Virus record (IMG/VR): IMGVR_UViG_3300044712_001142
Coordinates: 1-45,114 of that record
Length of the DNA stretch: 45,114 nt
Origin: a virus
Strand: one strand, 5' to 3'
The translations under genes were made by a program, and so were the position numbers. Of this stretch, positions 4,169 to 30,612 are shown one piece after another; positions within the stretch are counted from its first letter, which is position 1, and the number at the start of each line of letters is the position of its first letter. A model generated the notes under the pieces. It was given only the letters and a program-made list of their open reading frames with translations, ran no database searches and was not told where the DNA came from.

Positions 4169-4902
4169 TAAGCCTCCTGAGCAGATGCGATACATCCCCA
4201 TTTGGAGGTGGTGGTATCGTATATAAAGCCTACGGTTAAGACTTTACTGATGACGGTGGTGGTTGGTAGAGCAGTTCCCCTAGCCTCAAAGCTCGCTCCC
4301 CAGGTAATAGCCCTGGCTGTCCCATTATCTTTGATCCTGACAATTAACCCTTGAAAGTTAGTCGGTGTACCCGTTAGGTTGGTTGTCATGGAAGCAATCG
4401 CCTCTGCTTGAGCGGTGATATCAACCACATCACAGTTATCAGTATTTACAGTAGGGTTAGCGTTGGAAGTGATAGCAGTAACACGCTTGGTAATTCGTTT
4501 AGTGGTGAGGGTTTGAGCTGTAGTTAAATCAACAACCTTTGTTGTATCCAATGCTCCAGTTACTTTAGAGACTAAGTTAGTAAGGGCATCAATCACATTG
4601 TTCCACATGCCGGCTGTGATAATCCCTTTAACGGTTGCCCCAGATGCGTGGGTTTGAGCTGAGCCACCCTCAAGTCCTCGGTTAGCTAAGGGAATCGTTA
4701 AAGCTCCCCCACTCTTTCCGGTAGCGTATGCAAACTCTTCGACATTCTCACCCTCGGAGATAATCACCATTCCTTCACCTGATTTAGCGCTGAAGGCTGT
4801 ATCACTGGTTAAAGGTGCGCTTGTGTCCGAGTTGGATATGCCACTTGATGCCGTAGTCGAGGCCGAGTTCCCGCTGGCGTATTTTAAATAATCTGCTGCC
4901 AT
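4168..4902 (-). CDS. Tail fibre / baseplate-like structural protein
   Basis: This 244-residue protein is rich in Thr, Ala, Ser and Asn with little charge and beta-prone repeats, as is usual in tail fibre or fibre-anchoring proteins. It is the first gene of the unit downstream of promoter-like site A and its hairpin, and has AAGGAG before ATG. It is coupled through TAATG to the Gly-rich fibre. No named family is recognised; a structural role is inferred from composition and place. Confidence 0.55.
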   Translation of the reverse strand: MAADYLKYASGNSASTTASSGISNSDTSAPLTSDTAFSAKSGEGMVIISEGENVEEFAYATGKSGGALTIPLANRGLEGGSAQTHASGATVKGIITAGMWNNVIDALTNLVSKVTGALDTTKVVDLTTAQTLTTKRITKRVTAITSNANPTVNTDNCDVVDITAQAEAIASMTTNLTGTPTNFQGLIVRIKDNGTARAITWGASFEARGTALPTTTVISKVLTVGFIYDTTTSKWGCIASAQEA

Positions 4903-4914
4903 ATGTCTCCTTAC

Positions 4915-4939
4915 GAAAAAAGACCACCTATTGGTGGCC
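4915..4939 (-). terminator. Hairpin with U-tract between the 1128-residue gene and the fibre unit
   Basis: On the minus strand GGCCACC-AATA-GGTGGTC is followed by six U. One pair is G-U on this strand and would be A-C on the other, which supports minus-strand use. It lies between promoter-like site A and the start codon at 4902. Confidence 0.75.
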
Positions 4940-4976
4940 TTGCTGATAGTGTTGTCAGAACAGGCTGATTGACTAT

Positions 4977-5004
4977 ATCCTAACTATGTTTGAGTTACAG
5001 TCAA
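4977..5004 (-). promoter_or_regulatory. Late promoter-like site A
   Basis: TTGACTGTAACT (minus strand) is followed after a 16-base spacer by TAGGAT. The TGA stop of the 1128-residue gene lies inside the -35 hexamer. This is one of five sites sharing TTGACTGTA at the same relation to a hairpin and a late gene start; the others begin at 9551, 12250, 18996 and 27659. Confidence 0.6.
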
Positions 5005-8000
5005 ATTACTTTGCGCACCTTCTTAAGCTTGCGTCTCACTAGCTTCTTGCGCTTCACGGATTTAACTTTGATGAGTTGTGATTTGGGTAGCGTAACCTTG
5101 ATGGCTTTCACTTTTTTAGGTGATTTGGTACTCGATTTTAATACTTCAGTAGAGTTTAGAAGTTCCACAGCCTTTTCTTTGGTTAATTGCCCATCTTGAT
5201 ATAGATCGACAATATCTTTTTGTCTGGATGAGATAGCACTAGCGTATTGCGATTTCAGCTTCTTATCTAAAAGTGAATTTCCTGTATACGTGGGTGTTTC
5301 GATTGGTTTACTTAGGTCTATTACTCGAACACTGCCGGTATCAGAGGCAATAACAAAGGGTTTAGACAGTCCAGTTATTGGCTTAACCGTCGTCGTTTCC
5401 TGCGCTTTAACCTGTCCTGATTTGGTGTCTTTGCTATTGATGATCTCTTGCCCATTCTGAGCTTTATACACACTTCTGGATTGTTTGACTACGTTATCAA
5501 TCGCTTTGGCTTTCTGCTCATCATCAAGAGACTGGTAAGAGGGAGATGAGATAAGTTTGTCTAGCGACTGCCTGACCAGTTCACCACTTCCGGCCTCTAA
5601 GCTGTTTAACTGTTGCGCGGTAAGCGTTACCTTTTGTTTTAAAATGGTTTGGTTCTTATTAAGCTTCGTAGGGATCGCTTCATCTCCTGCTTTATACAAC
5701 CTGCCCAATTCATCCACCACTTTATTGCTTACTGGGGTTTTTGAGTTAAAGAGATCGAAAAATGCATTTAATCCAGTTGGTTCTTGTTTGACTACATTAC
5801 CTAAAACATCCCGCTTTGGTATCAGGGTATTTCTTAATCCGGGTATTCCTGATTTAACATAATCTAAAGTGCTGTTGTTTTCTCTAGCGTATGGGTCGAG
5901 AGCCTTAGAAGTATCTTTTATAATGTTTGGAATGAGTGAAGCTGTTTGATTCCCAACGTATGATTTGCCGTATCTAGCAGGGTCAGTTAAGGCGTTTAAA
6001 GGCTGTTGAACACCTGATAAAAAGGTTTGATTTAGCTGGTCTTTCCCCAATCCAAACGCATAATTGCCAATCGAACCTTCAGGGCTACTCATCTCTTCTT
6101 TGTATTTAGCGCCTGCCAGTATAACTAAGGTTTGTGGTCCAACTGAATTGATCGAGCGCCATTTCCCACCAACTAATACTGAATTGGCTTGTTTACCTTG
6201 AGCCTGCCATAAATCAGCTTCTTTGGCGTCTTTGGGTTGTCCGGTCATTACCCCTTTACTCATCAAGTAAGATCCTAAGCCAAATAAGCCGGTTCCCATC
6301 ACCCCTCGTCCTATTTCCTGAGCTGCCTGTCGTTGTAGTTCAGGAACATTACCCACCATTACCCGCCCCATGTTCGTAATCCCTTTTACTAAACCGATGG
6401 GTGAATAATCAATCGTTTTCCCAATAATAGATGATGGGACTCCAGTAAAAGGCGCTACTACTTCGGTTGGCAGATTTGTATACCAATTTTGTCTTGACCA
6501 TCGTTTAATTGAGTTAGCCAGGCCTGATATTTTATTCTGATCTTTGAAAGTGGCGTAGCTGGCATCTTTGATAGCCGTAGTTAGCATGTTTTCAGTAGGA
6601 TTATTTACCAGGTTTTCAATAAACGCTTTATTACCCTGCTTACCAGCATTAATAGCCTCTGCCCCTGCCTGATCATATAAAGAACGAGCAAGTGCTGCGT
6701 TATAAAATGGCTTGTCTTCAGCTCCAAGCGTCCTAAATACAGCATCTGTATATTTCTTTAGCGCTTGTTCTACGGGGTGCTTACCCCAATTGATCTGATG
6801 CAGGTCGAATTTGTTAATCGTTTCTTCTGGGTCAAAACCTAACTTAACTATATCAGAGGCTGCTTGTATGCCTTTTTTCGTTCCCTGTCCGGTTCCTTGC
6901 ATAGTGGCGGTAACGGTTCTTTGTCCTGTTTTTAAAGACATGAGCTTATCCGCAGCTACCGCAATCGGATCTTTTATTGTTTCTGCTCCCGCCATGATCG
7001 TGTTACCTACTAAATTTCGCTCATGGGTTCTAAGTGAAGTTAATAAACCAGCTTTCCATACTGTGATAACTTTATCGGTCAGGCTTGAAGGAATAAAGCT
7101 ATTAATCGTGTTTTCCAGTTGGCTGATGGCGATATTCTTTTCTCTACCAGTTGCCATTTGACGGATGGCGTTGACTTGATCGGCTATTAACTTAGTCTGC
7201 TCACCGGATAACTGGGGTATTTTTGCAGAGTGTGTAGCGTTGTAGCGGTTAATCTTTCCGGCTGCTGAGAGTGCAATCGCTTCTGGTGACATCTTATCCA
7301 AGAGTGAGAAGGCCTGCACACCCCGACCTAATTCAGTCGCATGTTCAGCCAGGTTATTGTATAGTGATGCAGCTGCGTTATGGTCGCCGGCTTTATCTAA
7401 GTTAATCGCCTGTTGAATCGTAGCCGCCACTTTTTTATCCAGGTTGCTGGTATTTTTAAAGTCGATCGTGGCCCCATCTTGAAGTAAAGCCTCTGCCTCA
7501 CCCATGAGCTTTGTGTTTGGTTTTACAACATACTTACCTGCTACCGCTACCTTAGTAGGCTCAGCAACATTACTAGCCTCTTGAACAGAGGTAACTAAAC
7601 CGCGTTCCTTCATCACTTTAGGCTCTAAGCCTTCCCTAGCATTTCGAGACTGTAAGCCTGCCACCAACTTCCATTTACCCGTGTAGTTATCTGCTGACTG
7701 TAGTGATAAATCAATTAAATTCTTAAGCTGTTTGTTGGTCATGTTGCCTACATGATTTTTACCAAAGGCTTCTTCTGCTACTGTTTGGGCGTAATCAGCC
7801 ACTAAACCTAAGTTCTTTCTGTTTGCCCCTGGGTTATCCTCAACCATCTGCGCAAATTTACCCAATATTGTTCGTGCCTCTTGTGGCAGACTTTTAAAAT
7901 AACTTAGTTGATTTTTGTTTAAAGCAAAGTTTTCTTTTCCTGCACCAATACCGCTACTCATAGAGCCGACATTAGCAAGCTGTTTTGTCAGATAGTTTTT

Positions 8001-8387
8001 CTCATCCTGATTATATGAAGACCATTTATTATTAAACACTCCTAAATCTGCGCCTGGGTTTCCCTTCTGAATCAGCCTAGTTTTTAATGACTCGTCTAAG
8101 TTTTCCTGTGCTTTATTACCGGCAAGAAGCGAACTATAACGATCCACCAAAGCTTTATTTTTTGAGAGTGTATTTATTGGATTTATTCCCCGTGTCTGTA
8201 TCCCGGTTTGCACGTTTTGAATACCTTGTTGTATCGGTTTAACGATGTTTTGCTGAATAGCAGGCTGAACATTGGCAGCAATATAGTCTATATTTGCTTT
8301 GGCTGTATTCCCAAGATTGGATAATCTTTGTCCCACCGGAGCAATCATCTCTGAGTATTTGCGCTTCAGATCATCGAGAAATGCCAC
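5001..8387 (-). CDS. Large internal virion / DNA-ejection protein candidate
   Basis: This 1128-residue protein lies next to the 348-residue coiled-coil protein and downstream of the nozzle-like protein, the usual place of podovirus internal core proteins. It is Gln/Asn/Lys-rich and mainly helical. It has hydrophobic, Gly-containing stretches in the middle (for example around MGTGLFGLGSYLM). It ends in an extremely basic tail of about 40 residues with repeated Lys/Val/Arg, which could bind DNA. The GTG start is chosen because AGGAGG lies 5 bases upstream. No lysozyme motif is visible, so the ejection role is inferred from size, composition and place. Confidence 0.55.
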   Translation of the reverse strand: MAFLDDLKRKYSEMIAPVGQRLSNLGNTAKANIDYIAANVQPAIQQNIVKPIQQGIQNVQTGIQTRGINPINTLSKNKALVDRYSSLLAGNKAQENLDESLKTRLIQKGNPGADLGVFNNKWSSYNQDEKNYLTKQLANVGSMSSGIGAGKENFALNKNQLSYFKSLPQEARTILGKFAQMVEDNPGANRKNLGLVADYAQTVAEEAFGKNHVGNMTNKQLKNLIDLSLQSADNYTGKWKLVAGLQSRNAREGLEPKVMKERGLVTSVQEASNVAEPTKVAVAGKYVVKPNTKLMGEAEALLQDGATIDFKNTSNLDKKVAATIQQAINLDKAGDHNAAASLYNNLAEHATELGRGVQAFSLLDKMSPEAIALSAAGKINRYNATHSAKIPQLSGEQTKLIADQVNAIRQMATGREKNIAISQLENTINSFIPSSLTDKVITVWKAGLLTSLRTHERNLVGNTIMAGAETIKDPIAVAADKLMSLKTGQRTVTATMQGTGQGTKKGIQAASDIVKLGFDPEETINKFDLHQINWGKHPVEQALKKYTDAVFRTLGAEDKPFYNAALARSLYDQAGAEAINAGKQGNKAFIENLVNNPTENMLTTAIKDASYATFKDQNKISGLANSIKRWSRQNWYTNLPTEVVAPFTGVPSSIIGKTIDYSPIGLVKGITNMGRVMVGNVPELQRQAAQEIGRGVMGTGLFGLGSYLMSKGVMTGQPKDAKEADLWQAQGKQANSVLVGGKWRSINSVGPQTLVILAGAKYKEEMSSPEGSIGNYAFGLGKDQLNQTFLSGVQQPLNALTDPARYGKSYVGNQTASLIPNIIKDTSKALDPYARENNSTLDYVKSGIPGLRNTLIPKRDVLGNVVKQEPTGLNAFFDLFNSKTPVSNKVVDELGRLYKAGDEAIPTKLNKNQTILKQKVTLTAQQLNSLEAGSGELVRQSLDKLISSPSYQSLDDEQKAKAIDNVVKQSRSVYKAQNGQEIINSKDTKSGQVKAQETTTVKPITGLSKPFVIASDTGSVRVIDLSKPIETPTYTGNSLLDKKLKSQYASAISSRQKDIVDLYQDGQLTKEKAVELLNSTEVLKSSTKSPKKVKAIKVTLPKSQLIKVKSVKRKKLVRRKLKKVRKVI

Positions 8388-8396
8388 AGTGGCCTC

Positions 8397-9443
8397 CTAA
8401 GTTAGGGATGAGAGTTTATCTTTGTCAGAGTAAATATTCACGGCTTGAGTTTTGTTTTGTGTTGCCCCTGGATTAACCAATGTGTTTGAAAATCCGGTTT
8501 GGTCAACAGTGGGTGCAGAATAGCTTTGTAACTGAGCCATTTGAGAGGCTAGTGTTTGTTTCTGCGCTTCGGTCTGCATCTGGTACTGAGCCTGAGCATT
8601 TTTAATATCGGCCATGCGTTGAGATAAAGCCGCGTTAGCTGATCTAATCGCATCCGAGCGTTCACGATCAGAGAAACGCAAGTCTGTTTGAATCTGACTG
8701 ACAAGGTTTAGATAGTTATCTGAGATCTCTTTCGCGGCTAAGGTCAGTTCGCTTGTTTTCTGGTTGAGAAAATCATTTAACTTGTTTACTTGACCCTGGG
8801 CGGCAGACACGAAATTAGCCCGTTGTTTGTCAAACTCTTCTAAAGGCCTGGATAACACATCACCCGCAGCCGATGAGTTAAGAATCCCTAAGCCTCTGAG
8901 CATGTTGCGGTTCTTACCCTGAGTAGACCTGGCGATATCTCCAGCTTCAGCGATACTCTGATCTCTGGAGGTATTCACATCACCAATCTGGTTATTCACT
9001 TGAGAAAGTAAACCTGTTTTCTGGTTTTCAAGGTTAGAGTTGGCATTTTGATATTCAGTTTGCAAGTAACCAAGTTGGTCGTTTGCGAGGGCGGATAGCC
9101 GGTCAAATTCAGTGTTTAAAGATGCAATCTCGGCAGCATTAGCATCGGTAGCTGCTCCCTGTTGGCCTGCAAAGGGATCTGATTGTTGAGTTGTACCGCT
9201 TAAGGTTCCGGTTGGTTTAGGCTGAGCGGTTGGATATGCTCCTCCAACTTCTGTATTGCTTGTAGATAGTCCAGCAACCTGCCCCGATGTTGGTGATGGT
9301 TTGGTAGGTCCAACAAAATCAGTTGGGTAATTATAAGTACTAGGATTTATCTGATAAGCAGGATAAGATCCATAAAGATAGTTACCCTGAACAGTGGGAG
9401 TTGGGGTTGGTACTGGTGCAACATTTGGTAAGGTATATGCCAT
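8397..9443 (-). CDS. Coiled-coil virion protein candidate
   Basis: This 348-residue protein has a Pro/Thr/Gln-rich N-terminal third followed by a long helical, Gln/Asn/Ala-rich region (about 100-310) of coiled-coil type. It starts after AAAGGAAG and heads the unit downstream of promoter-like site B. It ends 9 bases before the start of the 1128-residue protein, so both are likely made together. This pairing resembles podovirus internal virion protein pairs. No specific family is recognised. Confidence 0.5.
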   Translation of the reverse strand: MAYTLPNVAPVPTPTPTVQGNYLYGSYPAYQINPSTYNYPTDFVGPTKPSPTSGQVAGLSTSNTEVGGAYPTAQPKPTGTLSGTTQQSDPFAGQQGAATDANAAEIASLNTEFDRLSALANDQLGYLQTEYQNANSNLENQKTGLLSQVNNQIGDVNTSRDQSIAEAGDIARSTQGKNRNMLRGLGILNSSAAGDVLSRPLEEFDKQRANFVSAAQGQVNKLNDFLNQKTSELTLAAKEISDNYLNLVSQIQTDLRFSDRERSDAIRSANAALSQRMADIKNAQAQYQMQTEAQKQTLASQMAQLQSYSAPTVDQTGFSNTLVNPGATQNKTQAVNIYSDKDKLSSLT

Positions 9444-9470
9444 AACTTCCTTTATTACTATTTAAACAAT

Positions 9471-9493
9471 AAAAAAGCCCCCTGGTCGGAGGC
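9471..9493 (-). terminator. Hairpin with U-tract before the coiled-coil virion gene
   Basis: On the minus strand GCCTCC-GACCA-GGGGGC, with one U-G pair, is followed by six U. It lies between promoter-like site B and the start codon at 9443. Confidence 0.7.
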
Positions 9494-9523
9494 CTGCAAC
9501 TTTATAGTTGATCGGTTGATGCT

Positions 9524-9551
9524 AGTGTAGTGACTTCATAGATACAGTCAA
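9524..9551 (-). promoter_or_regulatory. Late promoter-like site B
   Basis: TTGACTGTATCT (minus strand) directly follows the TAA stop of the nozzle-like gene. TACACT lies 16 bases further as a -10 candidate. It shares the TTGACTGTA core with sites A, C, D and E. Confidence 0.55.
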
Positions 9552-11471: not shown

Positions 11472-12154
11472 TAATAGCTCCCGATTCCTCTATCTTTGCC
11501 CATGTTTTCAATGGCTTCAAACTTTATCAGTTGATTAACACCAGGTGCGTTATCCTGACCCATTGCTTCACTGATAATTTGCTCGCCCATGTTGCGCTGC
11601 TCGGCGGCATTTTCTGGTTCGTCCTCTGCCTCGTAGATATCACCCAAGGTAAGACGGGCTAAGGCTTCATCATCAGGGAAGTACACATAGTCAGCGGTTG
11701 TGGTGCGTTTTGGTGGAATCCAAAAATACGAATAGGTAATGGTTACGCCAGTTTCAGGGGCTGGGTTTAAATGCATTTTCCACAGTTTATTAGCGGCATC
11801 GTACCAGACATAACAGACTTTATTAGCATTGCTCTGGTTGTATAGTTCTTTAAACTTGTGATAATCAATGATCGCGTATTGTTTATCTGCGGTTGTCCCA
11901 CCCACAAAGACTTCTGATAGCCCATTTAATCTCATGGGGTTGGTTGTAGATCCTACCGTGTAATCGGCTGTCCCATCTCCGGTAGCGGTTTGATTTGGAA
12001 GGATAAAAAGCTTCCACAGTTTGCGCTTGGCTAGTGAGCGTTCACGAAATGACAGAAAGCGTAGCCGTTTGGCTGAAGTATCAGTTTGAGATTCTCCCTT
12101 TAAATCTGAAATCATTTCAAGAAGATTAGCGACAGTGTCTTCGTATAGCGTCAT
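11471..12154 (-). CDS. Head-to-tail adaptor-like protein
   Basis: This 227-residue protein begins with a helical segment (TLYEDTVANLLEMISDL). It has a middle beta region with Trp/Tyr-rich strands (VCYVWYDAANKLWKMHLNP) and a helical C-terminal part (DDEALARLTLGDIYEAEDEP). This matches the general layout of phage adaptor or tail tubular A-like proteins that sit between portal and nozzle. The gene is directly upstream of, and coupled to, the nozzle-like gene. GGGGA precedes the ATG. The role rests on context plus fold pattern. Confidence 0.6.
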   Translation of the reverse strand: MTLYEDTVANLLEMISDLKGESQTDTSAKRLRFLSFRERSLAKRKLWKLFILPNQTATGDGTADYTVGSTTNPMRLNGLSEVFVGGTTADKQYAIIDYHKFKELYNQSNANKVCYVWYDAANKLWKMHLNPAPETGVTITYSYFWIPPKRTTTADYVYFPDDEALARLTLGDIYEAEDEPENAAEQRNMGEQIISEAMGQDNAPGVNQLIKFEAIENMGKDRGIGSY

Positions 12155-12166
12155 AGTTCCCCATGT

Positions 12167-12191
12167 AAAAAGGCCACCGGTTAAAGTGGCC
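12167..12191 (-). terminator. Hairpin with U-tract before the adaptor gene
   Basis: On the minus strand GGCCAC-TTTAACCG-GTGGCC is followed by five U. It lies between promoter-like site C and the adaptor start at 12154. Confidence 0.75.
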
Positions 12192-12222
12192 TGCTTGATA
12201 TTTCAAGTGTAGCTTGACACCT

Positions 12223-12250
12223 ATATTAGGTAGATTTGAGTTACAGTCAA
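12223..12250 (-). promoter_or_regulatory. Late promoter-like site C
   Basis: TTGACTGTAACTCAAA (minus strand) follows the stop of the 1041-residue fibre gene by one base. TAATAT lies at a 16-base spacer. It shares 16 leading bases with site A, which lies 7 kb away. Confidence 0.6.
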
Positions 12251-12251
12251 T

Positions 12252-17514: not shown

Positions 17515-17590
17515 AAATTTTTAATTCAATGTAGCCGTAAACGAGACCGTAAACGGCTACACAGAATTGGTCTCGTTTAATTGTTAAATC
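17515..17590 (-). promoter_or_regulatory. Intergenic region with interlocked inverted repeats
   Basis: GTAGCCG (17531) pairs with CGGCTAC (17554), and TAAACGAGACC (17538) pairs with GGTCTCGTTTA (17569). The two helices cross, so they would form either a pseudoknot or two exclusive hairpins. There is no U-tract right after them. The region separates virion-like genes from the methyltransferase genes. Confidence 0.55.
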
Positions 17591-18070: not shown

Positions 18071-18082
18071 ATTATTCACCCC

Positions 18083-18412: not shown

Positions 18413-18915
18413 ACGGAAAAATGCTCCATCTCATCGAGAACGATCTTATTCATGTCTTTACCCGAGGTTGACCGGGCTAGTTTCATAAATATGCGCCGCT
18501 TTTCATGGGGATCGTTAACGAAAGAAAGACTTTTCCAGGCTTTCACCACTCCGCCAATCCGTTCTAAGATTACGGACGGGTCAGAAGTATCAGTGAGGCC
18601 AAATTCCGCCTTTATATCGTTAAGCGCTTGTTTAAACGCTCCCATCGTTGGGCTGTCGCCTCTGGTTTTAATAATGTCAAATAAATATTGCTTGGTTTCT
18701 TTTAAGTTTTCCTGGTCTTCTGGGGGCATGTTCTTAACGGAATCATCGATACCCAGGCTTTCTAACAAGATGTCACTGCCCTGGCTTTCTCTGACTTCAA
18801 TTGGTTCTAAATCAGCCTCATTGGAAGCTGCCCCGTGAATGTTCTGTTCAGGTTCAGGCAATGATTCCTGTGGTGCGGGTGGAGTGTAGGTTCTAACGAC
18901 TGGATCGATTGCCAT
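18403..18915 (-). CDS. Hypothetical protein, first gene of unit D
   Basis: This 170-residue protein has a Pro/Glu-rich N-terminus (VVRTYTPPAPQESLPEPEQN) and a helical acidic remainder. The ATG at 18915 follows a hairpin whose loop and 3' arm contain the candidate ribosome binding site (AAAGGTGG); a GTG 12 bases upstream lies inside the hairpin. It overlaps the next gene by 10 bases. No family is recognised; an assembly or regulatory role in late expression is possible. Confidence 0.5.
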   Translation of the reverse strand: MAIDPVVRTYTPPAPQESLPEPEQNIHGAASNEADLEPIEVRESQGSDILLESLGIDDSVKNMPPEDQENLKETKQYLFDIIKTRGDSPTMGAFKQALNDIKAEFGLTDTSDPSVILERIGGVVKAWKSLSFVNDPHEKRRIFMKLARSTSGKDMNKIVLDEMEHFSVWR

Positions 18916-18939
18916 AAAATAACCCACCTTTCGTGGGTC
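18916..18939 (-). terminator. Hairpin with weak U-tract before unit D
   Basis: On the minus strand ACCCAC-GAAAG-GTGGGT is followed by UAUUUU, immediately before ATG 18915. It may act as a weak terminator or as a 5' hairpin that masks the Shine-Dalgarno site. Confidence 0.5.
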
Positions 18940-18966
18940 TGCGATTTACTTATCGAATGACTGACC

Positions 18967-19977
18967 CTATTTAACCTTAGTTTTAGGTACAGTCAACGAA
19001 TTAAACGCATCAACCCACTGGTATATGTTGTGCTTTAGGTCATAGACCTGCCGTACGTTGGCATAGGCCCCATCAACAATATCTTCGCGGATGTGCTTAC
19101 AAATAATCATGTTTTTTAAACATGGGTACCACTCTTCAACAGATCGGGCAATCATGCCTCTACGTCTAATGTCAAAATTCTTTACACCATATACTGTCTT
19201 GGAGTATACGGATGGTATCTGAGCGATGCCGTACTCAAGATATTTGATGTTTGATTTGCAGCGGTTAAACTCTGTTCGCCTTAAAGGTGCCAGGCCAATA
19301 TCAAGTCTTAAGCCATGCAAGCGTGACGGCCAGGCCTCAAAGGGTACCCCCAGCATGTATTCCGCTTTTAAACCGGGTAATAGATCTGCTGCTCGCGGTT
19401 CACCTAAAAAGACAAAGTCTAAGTTTTTAAATTCTCGACTAATCCTTAATATCGTTGGCGCTATCGAGGCTAAATCGCTAAGATGGGTGATTGATCCAGC
19501 CCAACCAATCCGCAGCCGGTCAGAAGTATTGCGCTTTTTGGGTAAGTCCCATACTTCCATATCCATAAAGTTATGTATGACGCGCACTTTTTTATTATAT
19601 TTTCTGAGCTTATTAGCTAAATATGAATTGGTCGTCGTGACCATATCAGCGATCTTCATGGTGATTTTAATCACGTCAGCCGCGTCACTGATTTCATGCT
19701 CGCGTTTATGTGGGTTATCCTCGGCTACTTCGATCTGGTCATCCTGTTCGACTACAATCCTTTTACCCTGCTCTTGTTGGTAAGCATGTAAGAGCGCTAT
19801 AGCCTGTTTATCTACAATCCCTTGAAGGACAAACACATCACCCCATTGTATGATCTCTTCTGTAATCTGATCTCTCCACACTACAGTCTCAAACCCTTCC
19901 CGATTTAAGTATTTAAACGGCGCTTCTATTCGCCAGTGGGCTGAGGCTGACGAGTTGGGGAAGCCGACGATGCGCAT
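18967..19977 (-). CDS. GT4-type glycosyltransferase
   Basis: This 336-residue protein has the two-lobed GT-B layout. The N-terminal lobe starts MRIVGFPNSSASAHWRIE, the interdomain link is VRVIHNFMDMEVWDLP, and the C-terminal lobe has LRIGWAGSITHLSDL and the donor-side acidic region with KYLEYGIAQIPSVYS. These are the hallmarks of GT4 enzymes. It starts 52 bases inside the deacetylase-like gene. Promoter-like site D lies within its last codons. The target glycan is unknown. Confidence 0.75.
   Translation of the reverse strand: MRIVGFPNSSASAHWRIEAPFKYLNREGFETVVWRDQITEEIIQWGDVFVLQGIVDKQAIALLHAYQQEQGKRIVVEQDDQIEVAEDNPHKREHEISDAADVIKITMKIADMVTTTNSYLANKLRKYNKKVRVIHNFMDMEVWDLPKKRNTSDRLRIGWAGSITHLSDLASIAPTILRISREFKNLDFVFLGEPRAADLLPGLKAEYMLGVPFEAWPSRLHGLRLDIGLAPLRRTEFNRCKSNIKYLEYGIAQIPSVYSKTVYGVKNFDIRRRGMIARSVEEWYPCLKNMIICKHIREDIVDGAYANVRQVYDLKHNIYQWVDAFNSLTVPKTKVK
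18969..18996 (-). promoter_or_regulatory. Late promoter-like site D
   Basis: TTGACTGTACCT (minus strand) is followed by TTAAAT at a 16-base spacer. Here the site is embedded in the last codons of the GT4 gene (Leu-Thr-Val-Pro). The same core therefore exists where coding constraints apply, and this copy could be partly coincidental. Confidence 0.5.
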
Positions 19978-20594
19978 ACATCCTCCACCAGTTCTGATGC
20001 AAAGACAAACTTAGCATCTCGTGGCATTTTCATTAGGTTAATAAAACAGTCTTCTAAGTTGTTTTTGCTGGGTTCGGTCATGTGGCCGTGGAGTTTTAAT
20101 ACAGAAAGATTTGATAAGTGGAATGGTTCATCAATGGAGTGAGTATATTGGTAAATACGTTTGGTCTTCAGCATCTTTGGCTGATTGCGGTCCACTGCTC
20201 CCCACCAGCCGTGCTTATCCAGCTCTTTAACCACATCCTCATTCCATAGCCATTGTGGCGCTTTAAAGCCTTTGACATACGGCAGACCCATAAACGCCTC
20301 ATCGTAGTGATCTAAAATCATCTTCATGGTTTGGCGATCACACTGTTCAAACTCTCTAGGGATATGCATCACACCATGGGGGATCAGCTCCACCCAATCA
20401 AGGATGTCTTTTAGCTCTTGCAGCTTCTTTTCTTTCATAAGCCCCATGCCTACATTACGTTCGACCTCGTAATCAAAGGGAATATAGAAAAGCGAGACTT
20501 TTAGATCTGGGTAGAACTCTTTGAGCTGCCTTAGTAAGTCGTAGCGGGTACGCAATATTGAGGCATCATCCAAATCAAGGGCTATCGTGGTCAT
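19926..20594 (-). CDS. Polysaccharide deacetylase-like protein
   Basis: This 222-residue protein starts with a NodB-like metal-site stretch (IALDLDDASILR, the DD pair). It continues with a His motif (ELIPHGVMHIPREFEQC), a GFKAPQWLWNEDVV segment and a late KLHGHMTEPS His pair. Family members hydrolyse N-acetyl groups on sugars. It overlaps the methyltransferase stop by 4 bases and sits inside the glycan cluster. The order of motifs supports the superfamily, but the enzyme could act on another acyl substrate. Confidence 0.6.
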   Translation of the reverse strand: MTTIALDLDDASILRTRYDLLRQLKEFYPDLKVSLFYIPFDYEVERNVGMGLMKEKKLQELKDILDWVELIPHGVMHIPREFEQCDRQTMKMILDHYDEAFMGLPYVKGFKAPQWLWNEDVVKELDKHGWWGAVDRNQPKMLKTKRIYQYTHSIDEPFHLSNLSVLKLHGHMTEPSKNNLEDCFINLMKMPRDAKFVFASELVEDVCASSASPTRQPQPTGE

Positions 20595-21229
20595 TTCTTG
20601 TATCCCACCGCCATAATCACGTATAGATGTTCCATGTCAGGCAGGTATATAAACTGAACCCGATCAAAACCGCATGAATGGTAGAGGTCTTCGACATCAT
20701 CGTGTGTGAAAAACCACATATGCTCGTCACTGTGGATGTGATCTTCGCAGGGAGTCGTTAAAACAAATTTACCTCTGGGGACCAAGACTCTGTAGGCGTC
20801 CAAAAACAGGTCTTTTGGGTTATCCAGGTGCTCTAATACCTCCCCAGAGAAGACAACATTGAAGTAATTGTCGGGTAATTCAGTTTGGTTGCCGATTTTC
20901 TGACATAAGTATTTAATATTCGGGTTATATAAGGTGTTGTCTGTACAAACTTGGTTGGAAATGTCTGTACCCCATATTTCACACTTGGGACGCTCTCTAA
21001 ATACAAGATCGGTAAACTGACCCACACCACAACCCATATCCACGACTTTATCACCCGGCTTGACCTCTTCCATTGCCCGATAAAAGCGCATGGTGGGCTT
21101 AATGTACATATCACCCACTAAGGATTGTTGAGTGCCTTGGGCGGCATACTCAGCTCGTTTCTGCTTATCGCCATAAACCATGTTCCAGTATTGTTTACTG
21201 TTCAGTTGTTGATTACCGGTTGGTTTCAT
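20591..21229 (-). CDS. SAM-dependent methyltransferase (class I)
   Basis: This 212-residue protein has motif I (VVDMGCGVGQFTDLV), an acidic motif II region (EIWGTDISNQVC), motif IV (VVFSGEVLEHLDNPKDL) and the LVPRGKFVLTTP strand. The ATG at 21229 gives a 17-base overlap with the glycosyltransferase upstream; an earlier start would overlap 89 bases. It probably modifies the glycan or its precursor made by the cluster. The specificity is unknown. Confidence 0.8.
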   Translation of the reverse strand: MKPTGNQQLNSKQYWNMVYGDKQKRAEYAAQGTQQSLVGDMYIKPTMRFYRAMEEVKPGDKVVDMGCGVGQFTDLVFRERPKCEIWGTDISNQVCTDNTLYNPNIKYLCQKIGNQTELPDNYFNVVFSGEVLEHLDNPKDLFLDAYRVLVPRGKFVLTTPCEDHIHSDEHMWFFTHDDVEDLYHSCGFDRVQFIYLPDMEHLYVIMAVGYKK

Positions 21230-22670
21230 AGCTGATGACTCTTTCTGTTTTACGACGTTCAAAATAATCTGGATATCGTTTGTGCTGGCCTTCGGTGCCA
21301 TCCATGTGTTCGCAGTAATAGTTTTCTAAGTAGCCCATCTGATAACCTGTGTTTAATAGGTGGTGAGAGAAAATTAAATCCTGCACTCCATGCAACGTGT
21401 CGTCTTCATCCCAGCGAAAGGTGTTATAAGCCTTGGCATCGACAAAGTGACAGATACCGCCTAAGTGTTTGGTCATGCCCATGACTTCATCTTTGATATT
21501 CCCGTAAGCAATCCGAGGCGATCCACCTGGGTTATCCTTTAAACCCTGCACGTAGCAGGACATAGCGATCATATGGTTGACTTTCCAGATCTCCACCATC
21601 TTGGCTAACCAGCCATCAGTTAAGAAGAGACAATCGTTATCAACCTTGACAATAATGTCGTACTCACCGTGTTCATTAATCATATCGATGGCTTCGTTGG
21701 AGGCTTTCGAGATGCCGTGATTGTCAGGATTTGGTAGCAGATCCATAAAGAAATCATTTTTATGTTGGTTAGCGTATTCAAATATCCAAGAAGCCGTGTA
21801 GTCTTTTGAGCCATTATCCACAACAAAGTGGTCAAAGGCATACCCGGCAGTCTTGTGCAGGCTTTCAAAGCAGCGCTTGGTGTAGTCTAAGCGGTCATGA
21901 GTGAGGGTAAATATCGCTATTTTTGGTGGGGACAACGTCATCAAATAGGGCAAGTGTATCTCCAGCTCGTGTGCATCCCAATCAGGCAGATTAGGTGATA
22001 CCCCATCATGGGTCTTCATGTAATCAATTTCTTTTTTGGTCTGCTTTTTAATGGATTTAGAATCGGACAGATAGTAATAATCGGTAATGATGAGGGGCAC
22101 ATGCTTTAACCTGTAGCCGGCTTTTGCAATTCTTAACCATAGATTCCAATCAACGTACTTACTGTAGCGCTCATCAAACCCACCCACGGCAAATAAGACC
22201 TCGCGCTTGATTAAAATATCTGAGGTGTCAATAAAGTTTTTGTGTAGCAGCATGGTAGGGCTAAACTCTGACCAGTTGCCTAAATGGGGTGGGATATTTT
22301 TCACCTTATCAATAATCATCCGGTCCCCGTATACCCCTTCTACATCGTTGGTGGTGATGGCGTTATAAAGAACCTGCAAGTGATCGGGCCTATAGGTATT
22401 ATCGCTATCCAAAAAGGCAATATATTCACCCGTAGAGGCTTTAATCCCTCGGTTTTTGGGTAGAGTATCGTTGCCAAAGCACCTGGTACGCCTGATGTAT
22501 TTAATTCGTGGATCGTCAATCCCCTCTACCATCTCTTTGGTGCCGTCATGTGATGCATCATCCACCACAATTAGCTCATAATCGGTAAATGTTTGATTTA
22601 AGACGCTCTTAATAGCCGCTTGGCAGGTGTCTTTGCGGCCATGGTGTGTCGTGAGGATAACTGAAATCAT
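21213..22670 (-). CDS. Two-domain GT2 glycosyltransferase
   Basis: This 485-residue protein carries two GT-A domains in tandem. The first (residues 1-230) has MISVILTTHHGRKDTC, YELIVVDDASHDGT and the metal-binding FLDSDNTYRP. The second (about 250-450) has IAIFTLTHDRLDYTKRC, FVVDNGSKDYT and VKVDNDCLFLTDGW. Such fusions add two sugars or build a repeat unit. It begins right after the stop of the GroES-domain gene with GGAGG upstream. Both metal sites look intact. Confidence 0.85.
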   Translation of the reverse strand: MISVILTTHHGRKDTCQAAIKSVLNQTFTDYELIVVDDASHDGTKEMVEGIDDPRIKYIRRTRCFGNDTLPKNRGIKASTGEYIAFLDSDNTYRPDHLQVLYNAITTNDVEGVYGDRMIIDKVKNIPPHLGNWSEFSPTMLLHKNFIDTSDILIKREVLFAVGGFDERYSKYVDWNLWLRIAKAGYRLKHVPLIITDYYYLSDSKSIKKQTKKEIDYMKTHDGVSPNLPDWDAHELEIHLPYLMTLSPPKIAIFTLTHDRLDYTKRCFESLHKTAGYAFDHFVVDNGSKDYTASWIFEYANQHKNDFFMDLLPNPDNHGISKASNEAIDMINEHGEYDIIVKVDNDCLFLTDGWLAKMVEIWKVNHMIAMSCYVQGLKDNPGGSPRIAYGNIKDEVMGMTKHLGGICHFVDAKAYNTFRWDEDDTLHGVQDLIFSHHLLNTGYQMGYLENYYCEHMDGTEGQHKRYPDYFERRKTERVISYETNR

Positions 22671-23228
22671 TTATTCCTCCACCACGCCAAAGACTTCATC
22701 AAAGCGGATCAGTAAGTGGGGGATATTGTTGATCTTAACGTTAAGGCCGGCTGCTTTACGGAATAGGATAGTGTCACCTTCTTTACAAGGTGGATCAACA
22801 ACTTGCATCATGCCTTGAACAGAAGCGCCCACCCGCACGACCTTAGCCAGGTTTGATTCATACTCAACTGATTCAGGTAAGAAGATTCCCCCCTGTGTCG
22901 TTTCTGTTTGTTCAGTTTTAACAACTAGCAATAATCCTGAGGCAGGCTTTAATCCACCCATAAGATATCCCCCTTCACGTAATTCATTGATAATTTTTTG
23001 CTCTTGAAGTTGTTGCTCGCGGTTGCGTTCCTTAACCCACTGGGGCTTATCCTTGGACCAGGCTTCCTTGCGCGATTCCTCAAACCTTCTTGCTTTGGCG
23101 CTGTTGTTTATCTCGTTTTTGCGTGTCTCATCAAACGCAATACCGGCTTTAAATGCTGTTTGACTATCGGGAGAGTGAAGATCTTTCTCGTACTTGGACC
23201 ATTCAGGGGTGTATTTAAGTTTGGGCAT
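22671..23228 (-). CDS. GroES-domain (Cpn10-like) protein with N-terminal extension
   Basis: This 185-residue protein has a C-terminal Cpn10 domain (about 90-185): the mobile-loop motif TQGGIFLPES, the NLAKVVRVGAS strand, CKEGDTILFRKAAG and the final EVFGVVEE. The first 90 residues are charged and helical. The ATG at 23228 (PKLKYTPEW) is chosen because the longer frame upstream crosses the capsid terminator. Co-chaperonins cap GroEL. Phage versions (T4 gp31) help capsid protein folding, which fits the place just after the major capsid gene. The extension is unusual. It starts the transcription unit that also carries the glycan cluster. Confidence 0.8.
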   Translation of the reverse strand: MPKLKYTPEWSKYEKDLHSPDSQTAFKAGIAFDETRKNEINNSAKARRFEESRKEAWSKDKPQWVKERNREQQLQEQKIINELREGGYLMGGLKPASGLLLVVKTEQTETTQGGIFLPESVEYESNLAKVVRVGASVQGMMQVVDPPCKEGDTILFRKAAGLNVKINNIPHLLIRFDEVFGVVEE

Positions 23229-23259
23229 ATAAAAGATGAGCTTTGTTATTATTCTAGCA

Positions 23260-23286
23260 CAAGAAAGCCCCCGATTTCTCGGGGGC
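23260..23286 (-). terminator. Intrinsic terminator after the major capsid gene
   Basis: On the minus strand GCCCCCGA-GAAA-TCGGGGGC is a perfect 8-bp stem with a GNRA loop, followed by UUUCUUGU. It lies 25 bases after the capsid stop, which suggests the abundant capsid transcript ends here. Confidence 0.85.
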
Positions 23287-23310
23287 AAACTTGACAGTAA
23301 CAAAAAAATA

Positions 23311-24288
23311 CTAAGCAGTTGTAGAAACGGTGTGGTTCATGTTTACATAGAAAGCACCGTTCAAGGAAGCTGCACCAAAGGTGGTCTTCCAACCGGCAGT
23401 CGCTAACTTATCGGTAGGATCTCCAGCACCAGCTGAACCGAAGTCTTTAACATAAGTTTTCAGACTTTGCAGTTCAGTGACACCAAAGGCATCACGACCG
23501 AAGAAGGAAGTGACATACAACGAACCGGAAGCAACGACACCAGTTCTAGGTACAGAGGCGTTGGTGGTTGATAAGAAGCGTACACCCATTAGTTTACCGA
23601 CTTCACCCGATAAGAGTTTGGTCGCATTTTCTGCGGTGTATTTGTTCGCATCCATCCATCCCCCGGTGGTCGTATCAGCTTGCAGATCATACAAAGAATC
23701 AGGATGGATCACAGAGACCCAAGAGCCATCTTCTAATTGCATGGTATCAGCTCGTTGTAAGCGACGCACAGCCCTACGCACACCACCAATAGTCATGGTA
23801 GCGGTTGCAGGAACTGAGGTCCAAGCAGCGGTAGCAATACCCCCGACAACTGTGTCAAAAGTACCAGAGTTCTGGATTTCTTTTGCGACAATTGTATCAA
23901 TGGACAGACCAGCATTATAAGCTAACCGTTCCATAGCGGCTTTCATCACATCCCCAAAACTCACGTAGGCGAGAATATCAGAGATAGAGACGGCAGCGTC
24001 ATATTGAGCGGTAGAGCCGGTCACGTTGGTAGCAGTCATGGAGACGGCGGTAGTTGGCACACCTTCACCTTGACCGGCAGTTACTAATGGGAGATTAACC
24101 CATTTGGTCCAGGTAACAACACCAGTACCATAACCACCTTCACCAGATTCAATCTTGCGATTGGTCTGGCCTAATTGTTTGTGAACCAATTTCGATTCGG
24201 CAATCCGTAAGAACAATTTGTCATAGTAAGCGCTTTTAATCGCTTTACTAACGGTTGTCGTATTCGACTTGGCTGTTTCAAGAGCCAT
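23311..24288 (-). CDS. Major capsid protein, N4-gp56-like family
   Basis: This 325-residue protein has the N4-gp56-family pattern. It has a helical start with KAIKSAYYDKLFLRIAESK and the strand GVVTWTKWVNLPLV followed by a Gly/Glu loop and VPTTAVSMTATNVT. The motif QYDAAVSISDILAYVSFGDV carries the typical SD within the P-domain, and IHPDSLYDLQ and GVRFLSTTNA follow. It is preceded by the scaffold gene and followed by a strong terminator. It forms the icosahedral shell. AAAGG lies 6 bases before the ATG. Confidence 0.85.
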   Translation of the reverse strand: MALETAKSNTTTVSKAIKSAYYDKLFLRIAESKLVHKQLGQTNRKIESGEGGYGTGVVTWTKWVNLPLVTAGQGEGVPTTAVSMTATNVTGSTAQYDAAVSISDILAYVSFGDVMKAAMERLAYNAGLSIDTIVAKEIQNSGTFDTVVGGIATAAWTSVPATATMTIGGVRRAVRRLQRADTMQLEDGSWVSVIHPDSLYDLQADTTTGGWMDANKYTAENATKLLSGEVGKLMGVRFLSTTNASVPRTGVVASGSLYVTSFFGRDAFGVTELQSLKTYVKDFGSAGAGDPTDKLATAGWKTTFGAASLNGAFYVNMNHTVSTTA

Positions 24289-24307
24289 AAAAGCCTTTAA
24301 ATTTCAA

Positions 24308-25030
24308 TTACCATTGACCGTTTTGTTTGAGCCATGCTTCCATCTCTTTATCAGACATAGAGTTAAAGTCAGGTTGGGCGCCTGCTCTCGATACAACTCG
24401 GTTGGTAATGCCACTGTCACTCTGTTGGACTTTAACAGAGCGTGCCTCGGTTTTGGCTTCTACGATGCGTTTGGTTAGCTTCGCGGCTCGTTGAAGAGCC
24501 TGTCTGCCAGCCTGCAAGGGTGTTATCCCTGGGTTTGCTCGTAGTATCTCAAAACCCCATTGGTCTAACTCAGAATCATATTGATCTGAATCTGGGTTAA
24601 ACTGCGGCAACGCCATCTTCAATTCAAGGACATCAGCTTTATCGATTTTGATTTCAGGCTGTTTAACGGGTTTAGTACCTTTGTTTTGCAAAAGTGCTTC
24701 ACCTTGAGCTATACGGGCTTTAAACTCCGCTAACTCTCGTTCATTCGCCTTCATCTTTCCATAAATCTTGTCGAACCTCGATTGAGGGACGTACTTTTTA
24801 CCTGATTCATCCTCTGCGAGTGTTTCTTCCTCAGTCTCTTGAGGCTTGGCGTCCTCTTGATTCTGGGCTGGCGGTGTCTCTACCGGTGCAGATTCTTCCT
24901 CAGTCGTTTGGTTTTCAGGGGCTGATGCCTGGACGGGAGTTTCTGACTCTTCCGTAATATTTCCCTCTTCATCAGTTACCTGATGCCCATTAAGGGAAGC
25001 AGCTAATTGAGCCATCATGTCTTCTGACAT
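24308..25030 (-). CDS. Scaffolding-like protein
   Basis: This 240-residue, highly acidic protein has a Glu/Gln/Pro-rich N-terminal half (EESETPVQASAPENQTTEEE) and a helical, charged C-terminal half (SRFDKIYGKMKANERELAEF). It lies directly upstream of the capsid gene. These are the usual properties of phage scaffold proteins, which drive procapsid assembly. The ATG at 25030 is chosen for the AAAGGA site 6 bases upstream. Confidence 0.75.
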   Translation of the reverse strand: MSEDMMAQLAASLNGHQVTDEEGNITEESETPVQASAPENQTTEEESAPVETPPAQNQEDAKPQETEEETLAEDESGKKYVPQSRFDKIYGKMKANERELAEFKARIAQGEALLQNKGTKPVKQPEIKIDKADVLELKMALPQFNPDSDQYDSELDQWGFEILRANPGITPLQAGRQALQRAAKLTKRIVEAKTEARSVKVQQSDSGITNRVVSRAGAQPDFNSMSDKEMEAWLKQNGQW

Positions 25031-25100
25031 AATGTCCTTTCTTGCATGGTTTAAATACGTAAACCAAGAAACGGCCAATTAATAACATGCAGCCTTGTGG

Positions 25101-25130
25101 GGCTGGATCTAGGTTATCCCAGATCTAGCC
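25101..25130 (-). other. Long hairpin at the end of the 81-residue gene
   Basis: GGCTGGATCT (25101) pairs with AGATCTAGCC (25121) around a 10-base loop, a 10-bp stem with one wobble pair. It overlaps the stop of the 81-residue gene and has no U-tract. It could be an RNA processing or stability element upstream of the scaffold gene. No function is shown. Confidence 0.4.
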
Positions 25131-25370
25131 ACGCAAATCTACAATCCGTTCATCAATTACCCGGTAATAGCCAGGTAGTTTAGAACCCCAGGGGCAGTAC
25201 TTGCACCTGATGGTTCCATCATGGTTGTTAATGTACCCAACATGCTCGATCCAGTTCTTTTTATCGTGTGTCGAACAGATGTTGATGCTGACTGGTAAGG
25301 TTTTAAAGGTCTTGGCTCCTTCCCAATAGTCATCACTCGTTGGTGGTAGGTTTGGTACGCTCTCGCTCAT
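25125..25370 (-). CDS. Hypothetical protein with CxxC pair
   Basis: This 81-residue protein is polar with a C-terminal RCKYCPWG motif and an earlier Cys-His (ICSTHDKKNW), so a small zinc site is possible. It overlaps the end of the 99-residue gene by 38 bases and sits between portal and scaffold. No family is recognised. Confidence 0.5.
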   Translation of the reverse strand: MSESVPNLPPTSDDYWEGAKTFKTLPVSINICSTHDKKNWIEHVGYINNHDGTIRCKYCPWGSKLPGYYRVIDERIVDLRG

Positions 25371-25632
25371 CTCTTAATACCTTTAGGTCTGACTCGATTG
25401 AGCCAAATAATTTACGTAAACCGATCAACTCATAGCGTTCGTTCTCAAACTCTTCGATCTTCTTCTCATCGTGCAACAGTAAGTTATTCACAAATAGTCT
25501 GATGCGGTTCTCATAGTTGGCCCTGATACGTTCAAAGCCTTTGGAGCGTACGATTTCTTCAAACTCAACCCCGCGTTGCATGGTTTCGGTGAGCTGTTCT
25601 TGTTGGGCGTCTGTTAGTTCAGGCCTGTCCAT
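25333..25632 (-). CDS. Hypothetical helical protein downstream of portal
   Basis: This 99-residue, highly charged protein is mainly helical (FEEIVRSKGFERIRANYENR, then EKKIEEFENERYELIGLRK). The ATG at 25632 has GGAGG 6 bases upstream and overlaps the portal stop by 14 bases. Small helical proteins at this place are common in podoviruses, but I cannot assign a role. Confidence 0.5.
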   Translation of the reverse strand: MDRPELTDAQQEQLTETMQRGVEFEEIVRSKGFERIRANYENRIRLFVNNLLLHDEKKIEEFENERYELIGLRKLFGSIESDLKVLRDERERTKPTTNE

Positions 25633-27571
25633 TGGCACCTCCTAATATTTGGTTCATATCCGGTAATGGATTTTGTACGGGTGCGCCTAAGGTAGCATCA
25701 ATCTGCTCCTGGGGTACAGGCATACCGTCCATAGTTTGTTGTGGCGGTTGAATATCAGTTACAGCGTCTTTGCCTTCAATCCCAAGCTGTAACTTATCAA
25801 ACATCTTCTCAGTTAAGACGGCAAAGTTGGGCATCTTTTGCTGCTGCATCAAGCCTTGCATCCATTGAGGATTCGAGAGCCTGTCAATCGCGGTAAAGAA
25901 GTTCTCTTGCATGATCACTGGATCAGTAAGCTGTTCAGATGAGACAGAGGCGATAAAGTCATAATCTCCGGCTACTGATGGTTGGATGTCTTCAGGTAAG
26001 AGGTTTAAGAAAGCAAAGTTACCGTCTTTGGATAAGGTAAGCTTTGAAGCTGTCTCTAAGTCACCTGGCACAATGGGCTGACCCATCATGTCAGTCTTGG
26101 CAAGATCGGTTTCTTTCTTCAAATAATCAATCTGGTCTTTACCGATAATGCGTAGTTTTTGCGCTTCGGTTGTGTATTGGATGCGTAGGTCTTTCCATTG
26201 GTTGGCGATGCGTTGAATGACCATGTGGTTAAAGAGCTGCACCTTTAATTTAAACTGGGCGTTGGCTTCCTGTTGAATTAACCGTGTACCGGTGGCCGTC
26301 TTATTGGCTACATTGGCTTCACCGTTAATGCCCATGGTGTAATCAGTGATACCCGTACCATTTTGTAAAGCGCTGGTTAAATAGTTCATGGTTTGCACAA
26401 AGGTAGCCCCAGTGACATCGGGAATCGCCACAGGTTCTACAGCGTTCATATCATCCGTGGTGATGATGTTGCCTGGGGCAGAGACTAAGGTGTGTAAATC
26501 CACCCCTGAGTTTTTCTTGACCTTCCACATGTTGCGTAACACTAGCTGCACGTTATCCAGTCTCTGGTTTAATACCGCATTAATCGCGCGTTGTACCCGG
26601 TCTACGGGTTCAATCTCACCCATGCCGAATAATTCACCTGGATATGGATAATCAACACCATAGATGATGGGGATTTCACCGTGGAAGTAGGGGTTTTCTA
26701 CTTCGCGGATGATCACATCATGCTCGATGGCATAATCAACCCAGCCAGTATTAGTAAAGCGGCGTAAAATCACCAGTTCCGGTGAGCTTTCGTCCTGACC
26801 AATCAGCTCTGAGGTAGACAGCATGATGCGTCTGTGTTCGCGATACTCCATGTGTTCAGGATTCGCATTGCCGGTGGTCTTCTTCTCTTTCTTGTCTTTG
26901 ATCTTTTGTTCGAGTACGTCCAGGTTTTTATAGTATTCTTCGCCTCTTAAATCATTTTGCTGCTTTAATTCCTCAATCGTCTTGAAAGTACGATAGATAA
27001 ACCAACGCATGTTGTGAATATTAGTGGCGTTAGGATCAGGGAAGCAGTCATAGATATTTAATGTCTCAAAGTTAGGCCCATCAAACTCAGTCACCATGAT
27101 CTCTTCGGTGTTTTTAGGTGTCCATACGGTGCGCCCATTGATCTCTTTGGGCACCATGCGCCGTTTAGATTTCTCTCTAAAGTCCCAGTAGGTGCGCCCA
27201 AAGGATGTTCCAAAGATCAACATGGATTTAACAAACTCAACCACCTTCGGGAACATTTCAGCTCTTCGCCAGTCATACTTCATGAGTGCATTTAATATCT
27301 GCGAGGTGGCTACATCCCCTGATTCAGTCGGGTAGAACGAGCCAGTCGGTTCATTAGCTACCATTCTGGGCGTGACCGTCTCAATGACTCTAAAGACTCT
27401 GGGGTCAAAGACACGGGCATTGTGGGGGTAATTAGTCTTGTCGATGTAAGTACGGTAAAGCTCTTCTTGTTGGTTCATCCTCTCGTGGATGCTGTCTAGG
27501 TAACGCTTGGAGAATGTAAACTGTTCATGAATCTCTGACTTTAAATCGGCTTCTGCTTGTGTTTTACTCAT
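25619..27571 (-). CDS. Portal protein
   Basis: This 650-residue protein fits podovirus portal proteins. It has a helical N-terminus (KRYLDSIHERMNQQEELYR), the segment ARVFDPRVFRVIETVTPRMV, the middle strand FGTSFGRTYWDF, the segment EIPIIYGVDYPYPGELFGMG and the crown-side QRAINAVLNQRLDN, and it ends in a Pro/Gln/Met-rich tail. The portal forms the dodecameric ring for DNA entry. It heads unit E: promoter-like site E, then a terminator-like hairpin whose U-tract abuts the ATG. No Shine-Dalgarno site is seen. Confidence 0.85.
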   Translation of the reverse strand: MSKTQAEADLKSEIHEQFTFSKRYLDSIHERMNQQEELYRTYIDKTNYPHNARVFDPRVFRVIETVTPRMVANEPTGSFYPTESGDVATSQILNALMKYDWRRAEMFPKVVEFVKSMLIFGTSFGRTYWDFREKSKRRMVPKEINGRTVWTPKNTEEIMVTEFDGPNFETLNIYDCFPDPNATNIHNMRWFIYRTFKTIEELKQQNDLRGEEYYKNLDVLEQKIKDKKEKKTTGNANPEHMEYREHRRIMLSTSELIGQDESSPELVILRRFTNTGWVDYAIEHDVIIREVENPYFHGEIPIIYGVDYPYPGELFGMGEIEPVDRVQRAINAVLNQRLDNVQLVLRNMWKVKKNSGVDLHTLVSAPGNIITTDDMNAVEPVAIPDVTGATFVQTMNYLTSALQNGTGITDYTMGINGEANVANKTATGTRLIQQEANAQFKLKVQLFNHMVIQRIANQWKDLRIQYTTEAQKLRIIGKDQIDYLKKETDLAKTDMMGQPIVPGDLETASKLTLSKDGNFAFLNLLPEDIQPSVAGDYDFIASVSSEQLTDPVIMQENFFTAIDRLSNPQWMQGLMQQQKMPNFAVLTEKMFDKLQLGIEGKDAVTDIQPPQQTMDGMPVPQEQIDATLGAPVQNPLPDMNQILGGANGQA

Positions 27572-27598
27572 AAAAAAAGGACGCTTTTAAATGCGTCC
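27572..27598 (-). terminator. Terminator hairpin abutting the portal start codon
   Basis: On the minus strand GGACGC-ATTTAAAA-GCGTCC is followed by seven U that run straight into the portal ATG (27571). It lies between promoter-like site E and portal. Confidence 0.75.
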
Positions 27599-27631
27599 TG
27601 CCTACTAATTAGTGGATCAGACTTTGATGTC

Positions 27632-27659
27632 ATTTAACACTAGAAATAGATACAGTCAA
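27632..27659 (-). promoter_or_regulatory. Late promoter-like site E
   Basis: TTGACTGTATCT (minus strand) lies one base after the stop of the 69-residue gene. TTAAAT follows at a 16-base spacer. This is the best fit to a sigma70-type site among the five copies. Confidence 0.65.
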
Positions 27660-27660
27660 C

Positions 27661-30581: not shown

Positions 30582-30612
30582 ATTTGGATCTTCCACCCTC
30601 GGGCTTCAATTG

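Follow-up and report, generated by a model that had tools for sequence, protein, structure and literature searches.

Each of the five predicted late promoters in this phage genome runs into a small hairpin followed by an intrinsic terminator, both of them located ahead of the next start codon, a feature that the preliminary description of this DNA had missed, and among related phages the terminator ahead of the portal gene co-occurs with a small gene, g31. Our reading is that the late promoters are gated by antitermination and that g31 is a candidate partner in this process, to which we give a probability of roughly 0.55. As judged from the sequence, late genes in this phage family are probably silent as long as RNA polymerase is not let through all of these stops. 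The window, that is, the whole stretch of DNA analysed, comprises 45,114 nt (IMGVR_UViG_3300044712_001142, positions 1 to 45,114).

The preliminary description had reported five copies of one promoter-like site, and this claim is confirmed: the motif TTGACTGTA[ATC]CT is found exactly five times in the window and on the minus strand only (5004, 9551, 12250, 18996 and 27659), compared with a mean of 0.01 and a maximum of 1 in dinucleotide shuffles. The accompanying claims, that TTGACT is followed by a 16-base spacer and a -10 hexamer (TAGGAT, TACACT, TAATAT, TTAAAT and TTAAAT) and that each site lies at the end of the preceding gene, also hold, with the -35 overlapping or directly following the stop codon or lying within the last codons. 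The -10 hexamers of all five are weak, and the next start codons (4902, 9443, 12154, 18915 and 27571) are located 80-110 nt downstream of the sites. The promoters and the first gene of the first gated unit are as follows.

4977-5004, minus strand: late promoter 1, TTGACTGTAACT, N16, TAGGAT; shares bases with the TGA stop of the 1128-aa gene before it
9524-9551, minus strand: late promoter 2, TTGACTGTATCT, N16, TACACT
12223-12250, minus strand: late promoter 3, TTGACTGTAACT, N16, TAATAT
18969-18996, minus strand: late promoter 4, TTGACTGTACCT, N16, TTAAAT; in the last codons of a 336-aa glycosyltransferase-like gene
27632-27659, minus strand: late promoter 5, TTGACTGTATCT, N16, TTAAAT
25619-27571, minus strand: portal gene, the first gene of the first gated unit

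Among the names earlier given to the first genes of the late units, adaptor (SU10-type, after promoter 3) and portal (after promoter 5) stand, whereas "fibre" and "virion" were loose labels: the gene after promoter 1 encodes an uncharacterised conserved protein (PHROG 3030) and that after promoter 2 an uncharacterised virion-region protein. Promoter 4 precedes an uncharacterised unit. We interpret the five sites as putative sigma70-type late promoters of a temperate phage, with predicted transcript starts, and the phage is probably podovirus-like. A recent duplication of a single regulatory cassette is ruled out, because the copies share the motif only and their leaders differ.

Each -10 precedes a leader of about 28-35 nt carrying a small hairpin, followed by a second, GC-rich hairpin and a U run; hairpin and terminator together are placed 30-55 nt past the -10. 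The stems of the leader hairpins measure 4-9 bp. In a terminator listing the five leader terminators rank among the clearest on the late strand, and RNA folding of the five leaders gave z-scores of -2.1 to -4.0, with competing folds in units 1 and 5.

4943-4958, minus strand: leader hairpin 1 of unit 1, CTGA-8-TCAG; a competing fold is present
4920-4941, minus strand: intrinsic terminator 1, before the ATG at 4902
9497-9510, minus strand: leader hairpin 1 of unit 2, CAACT-4-AGTTG
9475-9495, minus strand: intrinsic terminator 2, before the ATG at 9443
12194-12207, minus strand: leader hairpin 1 of unit 3, CTTGA-4-TCAAG
12171-12192, minus strand: intrinsic terminator 3, before the ATG at 12154 of the SU10-type adaptor
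18942-18955, minus strand: leader hairpin 1 of unit 4, CGAT-6-ATCG
18921-18939, minus strand: intrinsic terminator 4, before the ATG at 18915
27605-27620, minus strand: leader hairpin 1 of unit 5, weak, CTGAT-6-ATTAG; alternatives exist
27578-27599, minus strand: intrinsic terminator 5, with its U run touching the portal ATG at 27571

A promoter that runs into a terminator is sensible only if termination is regulated or leaky, and because these promoters run straight into a hairpin and an intrinsic terminator, initiation alone is not expected to express the late genes. Two more terminators are located inside the late units without a promoter motif (23286-23267 and 15406-15383, minus strand). 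The former is strong and lies directly after the major capsid gene, as it does in most relatives; the latter lies directly before the ATG of a 1041-aa gene, likewise in the relative G001.

The relatives that we compared are viral contigs found through the major capsid, portal and virion proteins, and as several of them are near duplicates, the independent phages are fewer than the records. A search for the portal protein among 85,000 genomes of bacteria and archaea returned no relative. By de novo terminator listing, the unit of promoter, hairpin 1, terminator and ATG is present in most of the related contigs, and several relatives, among the better covered genomes, carry it at 3-5 late positions. 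Upstream of the portal gene, read phage by phage, the unit is found both in the window's own clade (portal identity 62-78%) and in a second clade (26-31%), where it recurs at portal identities as low as 28-30%. G004 uses the motif TTGACCCAATCT once with a leader terminator and once without, and the named records with a distant major capsid protein or portal (L151, L152 and L153) have no gated promoters.

Across these phages hairpin 1 mostly has 4-6 pairs and ends 1-3 nt before the terminator hairpin, while its sequence varies from site to site. The hairpin is better than in shuffled leaders (41 leaders together, Fisher p=7.6e-8), and at least four Watson-Crick pairs form in 30 of 34 leaders, compared with 3.9 +/- 1.8 when the 5' parts are swapped between phages (maximum 11 in 1000 trials); the arms were picked for complementarity, and both controls apply the identical choice. 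Ahead of the hairpin we observe a conserved A, G, C and T/C at -7 to -4 (AGCY), and the hairpin opens with C in 34 of the 39 leaders of an alignment to which some rows were added by hand. This pattern indicates that hairpin 1 is conserved as a structure while its sequence changes, that is, by covariation.

A conserved leader structure also bears on two explanations in which the RNA itself would be the agent. The put RNA of phage HK022 consists of two long stem-loops without a U-run terminator of its own and acts independently of protein (PMC9378689); with the leaders described here it shares two hairpins near the transcript start and a link to antitermination. A leader of this type would alter polymerase and suppress its own and later terminators with no dedicated protein, in keeping with two hairpins of conserved structure that lie close to the 5' end, separated by 1-3 nt, and with the failure to find a Q homologue. 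We consider it very unlikely, given that the stems here are 4-9 bp, that the second hairpin, with its U run, resembles a terminator, that put RNA (about 70 nt) targets terminators further downstream, and that constitutive antitermination would leave the terminator pointless. It is also very improbable, in our view, that the leaders, once terminated, serve as trans-acting small RNAs: the predicted RNAs of 50-60 nt, with a 5' hairpin and a 3' terminator, have a suitable form, but stems and loops differ among the five copies, so that no common target site is apparent, and the leaders match no Rfam family at either gathering or permissive thresholds.

The spacer adjoining the -35 carries a second, phage-specific signal. 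Sites of the same phage share 0.75 identity at bases 7-10 compared with 0.40 for shuffled labels (p=0.0005), and 0.75 compared with 0.43 at bases 6-10, values from a table compiled by hand in which the selection of sites may add bias; bases 13-22 are close to random (0.33 compared with 0.28), and the constancy of TTGAC was itself the criterion by which sites were selected. The window has TGTA at bases 6-9, G010 mostly TTTA, and G014 TTGAT, while G009 has two types. This pattern fits a fast-evolving DNA-binding factor that would contact the promoter-proximal spacer beside sigma region 4. TAGTCT, a possible -10-like element of the kind that causes a sigma-dependent pause in the Q, AlpA and GafZ class, is seen near the predicted start in some relatives (G001, G002 and G005), and the window sites mostly do not have it.

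The promoter motif is found without a gate in G015, in which neither g31 nor a gated promoter is detectable. Six copies of TTGACACGAAA precede its late genes, and each ATG begins exactly 35 nt after the first T.

G015 contig positions 39846, 12321, 11476, 7751, 3810 and one more, minus strand: TTGACACGAAA promoters (loci L080-L082)

Since the ATG falls where transcription is expected to start, G015 is predicted to make leaderless late mRNAs. The presence of the motif without the leader implies that the gate is a layer of its own, which can be separated from the promoter motif.

These observations can be set against the proposal of the preliminary description, that a phage-specific activator or sigma factor reads the motif. 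In a rival explanation built on it, the terminators would serve to close off the units upstream or to dampen expression, with leaky read-through being sufficient. A phage-specific reader gains from our data, through the phage-specific bases beside the -35, the weak -10 hexamers and the motif without terminators in G015, and a late promoter set with a phage-specific helper fits what we observe. As an account of the whole it is incomplete, because each promoter runs into a hairpin and terminator: the usual order is terminator and then promoter, whereas here it is promoter and then terminator in five of five cases and in many relatives, and the conserved hairpin 1 and the co-occurrence of g31 are left unexplained. 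A search for a phage sigma factor gave no confident match, and the only sigma-like HTH of the window is a weak region-4-like one (22.1 bits, cut-off 24.1). We regard activation or a sigma factor as quite unlikely to suffice. This LuxR/sigma-region-4-like HTH lies in a 369-aa protein (109-1218, plus strand) that also has a C-terminal domain and a predicted membrane segment; the protein is absent from most relatives, has a distant homologue in G001, and is encoded on the strand opposite to the late genes.

Gating by antitermination has precedents in systems in which a protein binds within the promoter. AlpA of Pseudomonas aeruginosa has a binding element between -35 and -10 with an intrinsic terminator just downstream, at two target operons (PMC7969949, PMC9371919). 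The Q proteins of lambda and phage 21 act at a late promoter with a specific element inside it and an early terminator (pR' and tR' in lambda; PMC6606751, PMC7171158), and GafZ uses an element between -35 and -10 for antitermination of the virion-type cluster of the Caulobacter gene transfer agent (PMC11150451). The window shares with AlpA the position of the element and the terminator just downstream of it, and with lambda and 21 the in-promoter element, the early terminator and the position of a candidate regulator gene, which directly precedes the first of the late promoters. By analogy, the arrangement would work like the promoter-proximal antitermination of lambda Q, AlpA and GafZ. Two features of that class, the element between -35 and -10 (here bases 6-10) and the downstream intrinsic terminator (five of five), are present. 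We do not file it as a member of the class, because no homologous protein was found: a search for the Q/Antiterm Pfam families (PF06530 and PF03589) returned no homologue among 13 genomes. The systems also differ in their layout. Lambda has one late promoter and GafZ one promoter with the terminator after the first gene, whereas here five promoters in one phage are each followed by a terminator in the leader; relative to AlpA, the conserved hairpin before the terminator and the variation of the spacer motif by phage are found here only.

It is possible, although we judge it unlikely, that a single DNA-binding antiterminator of the Q, AlpA or GafZ type recognises the spacer motif, loads onto polymerase at the promoter and makes it pass both the terminator in the leader and those further on, with g31 uninvolved. 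Specific bases between -35 and -10, as in the AlpA and GafZ elements and reportedly those of lambda Q, are followed here by a terminator; AlpA serves two promoters with downstream terminators; and the internal terminators at 23286-23267 and 15406-15383 would need read-through too. The lack of a Q/Antiterm homologue argues against it, as does G015, which keeps six motifs with the ATG at the expected start and has no leader terminator, and it leaves both the conserved hairpin 1 and the link to g31 without explanation.

Antitermination with g31 as a partner also draws on the distribution of this gene.

27661-27870, minus strand: g31, 69 aa, candidate partner in antitermination; located after TerL and ahead of the first late promoter

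All 29 portal records of the window's clade that have the portal terminator also have g31. Four records (G015, L100, L012 and G008), which occupy four separate places on the portal tree, have neither; g31 without the portal terminator is found in four records of three lineages (L090, L108 and G009/L095). With relatedness ignored, all four records lacking g31 would fall among the eight lacking the terminator with a probability of C(8,4)/C(37,4), about 0.001. G009 has gated promoters elsewhere despite its missing portal terminator, and G008 has no g31, yet carries one gate-like element before a non-structural gene. A single deletion does not explain the joint loss, because at least L012, L100 and G015 retain a TTGAC promoter between the sites of the lost g31 (upstream) and the lost terminator (downstream). 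Just as lambda Q lies before pR', g31 lies before the first gate, and because it co-occurs with the gate and sits where lambda keeps Q, we take it as a candidate for the antitermination layer. Alternatively, g31 could have a role in packaging and be inherited together with the portal module.

AlphaFold models g31 with a beta hairpin and two helices but no HTH, at a mean pLDDT of 77, and a fold comparison with the PDB gave nothing better than E=1.3. Against DUF2292/YezD the best score was 17.3 bits, obtained with a distant-clade protein and below the Pfam cut-off of 22. The second clade that carries the unit encodes a small protein in the matching region with a similar beta-hairpin pattern (GxGxVxI); the comparison of the near and distant g31 profiles was not significant, and we do not claim homology. 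A SprT-like gene (29658-30596, minus strand), which lies before the terminase genes, has zinc-ribbon cysteines and has relatives in G001, G008 and G009, was considered as a Q analogue on account of its place and cysteines and was rejected, since an HExxH-type motif points to a candidate metalloprotease.

From these patterns in the DNA we infer transcript start and stop at the five sites, antitermination and the participation of g31. In the proposed mechanism host RNA polymerase, probably with a phage-specific factor on bases 6-10, would initiate a few tens of nucleotides before the terminator, and the nascent leader would present the AGCY-like stretch, the short structured hairpin, a CA linker and the terminator hairpin with its U run. 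By default transcription would stop at the leader terminator after roughly 50-60 nt of RNA. Later in the cycle, in the late phase, polymerase would be carried past all five terminators by an antitermination activity, so that the late units are turned on together. There would thus be two layers: initiation that needs or gains from the spacer-binding factor, which may be a pure activator or itself the antiterminator, and elongation into the late genes that needs antitermination at the leader, for which g31 is the best candidate partner. Points against this gate model are that no Q/Antiterm homologue was found in the 13 genomes, that the g31 model has neither an HTH nor a fold match, and that partial read-through of leaky terminators could suffice. 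A more specific version, in which every late operon begins with a promoter, a structured leader and a terminator, g31 opens all of these gates together by recognising the leader RNA, a separate fast-evolving factor reads the spacer, and the whole is widespread, is tentative and, taken together, rather doubtful.

The literature that we searched holds no description of a genome with multiple gates, a conserved hairpin-terminator leader or an association with g31. A partial likeness is found in the PeSLs of T4-like phages (cited in PMC4503421), which are reported to be composite promoter-terminator motifs of early genes tied to module shuffling; both are repeated units of promoter and stem-loop between phage genes, but the units here are late, begin with the promoter and carry phage-specific spacer bases. 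Known Q-type switches have one late promoter and AlpA has two, whereas here five late operons would be gated in parallel. If the model is true, such parallel gating, with a conserved RNA leader and a candidate partner of 60-100 residues, would represent a new way of timing virion assembly and silencing the prophage. The natural joint losses of g31 and terminator, with the promoter kept, make the roles directly testable, and the leaders together with g31 can be used to look for gates of this kind among uncultured phages.

Other genes near the gated units also show recurrent features. TerL, next to g31, appears to be split into two overlapping frames (27879-28514 and 28498-29292, minus strand), likewise in G004, G009 and G010, and its place in G001, G002 and G016 is taken by a single ORF of about 430 aa. 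A GroES-like co-chaperonin domain (22671-23228, minus strand) follows the capsid gene and is conserved in relatives.
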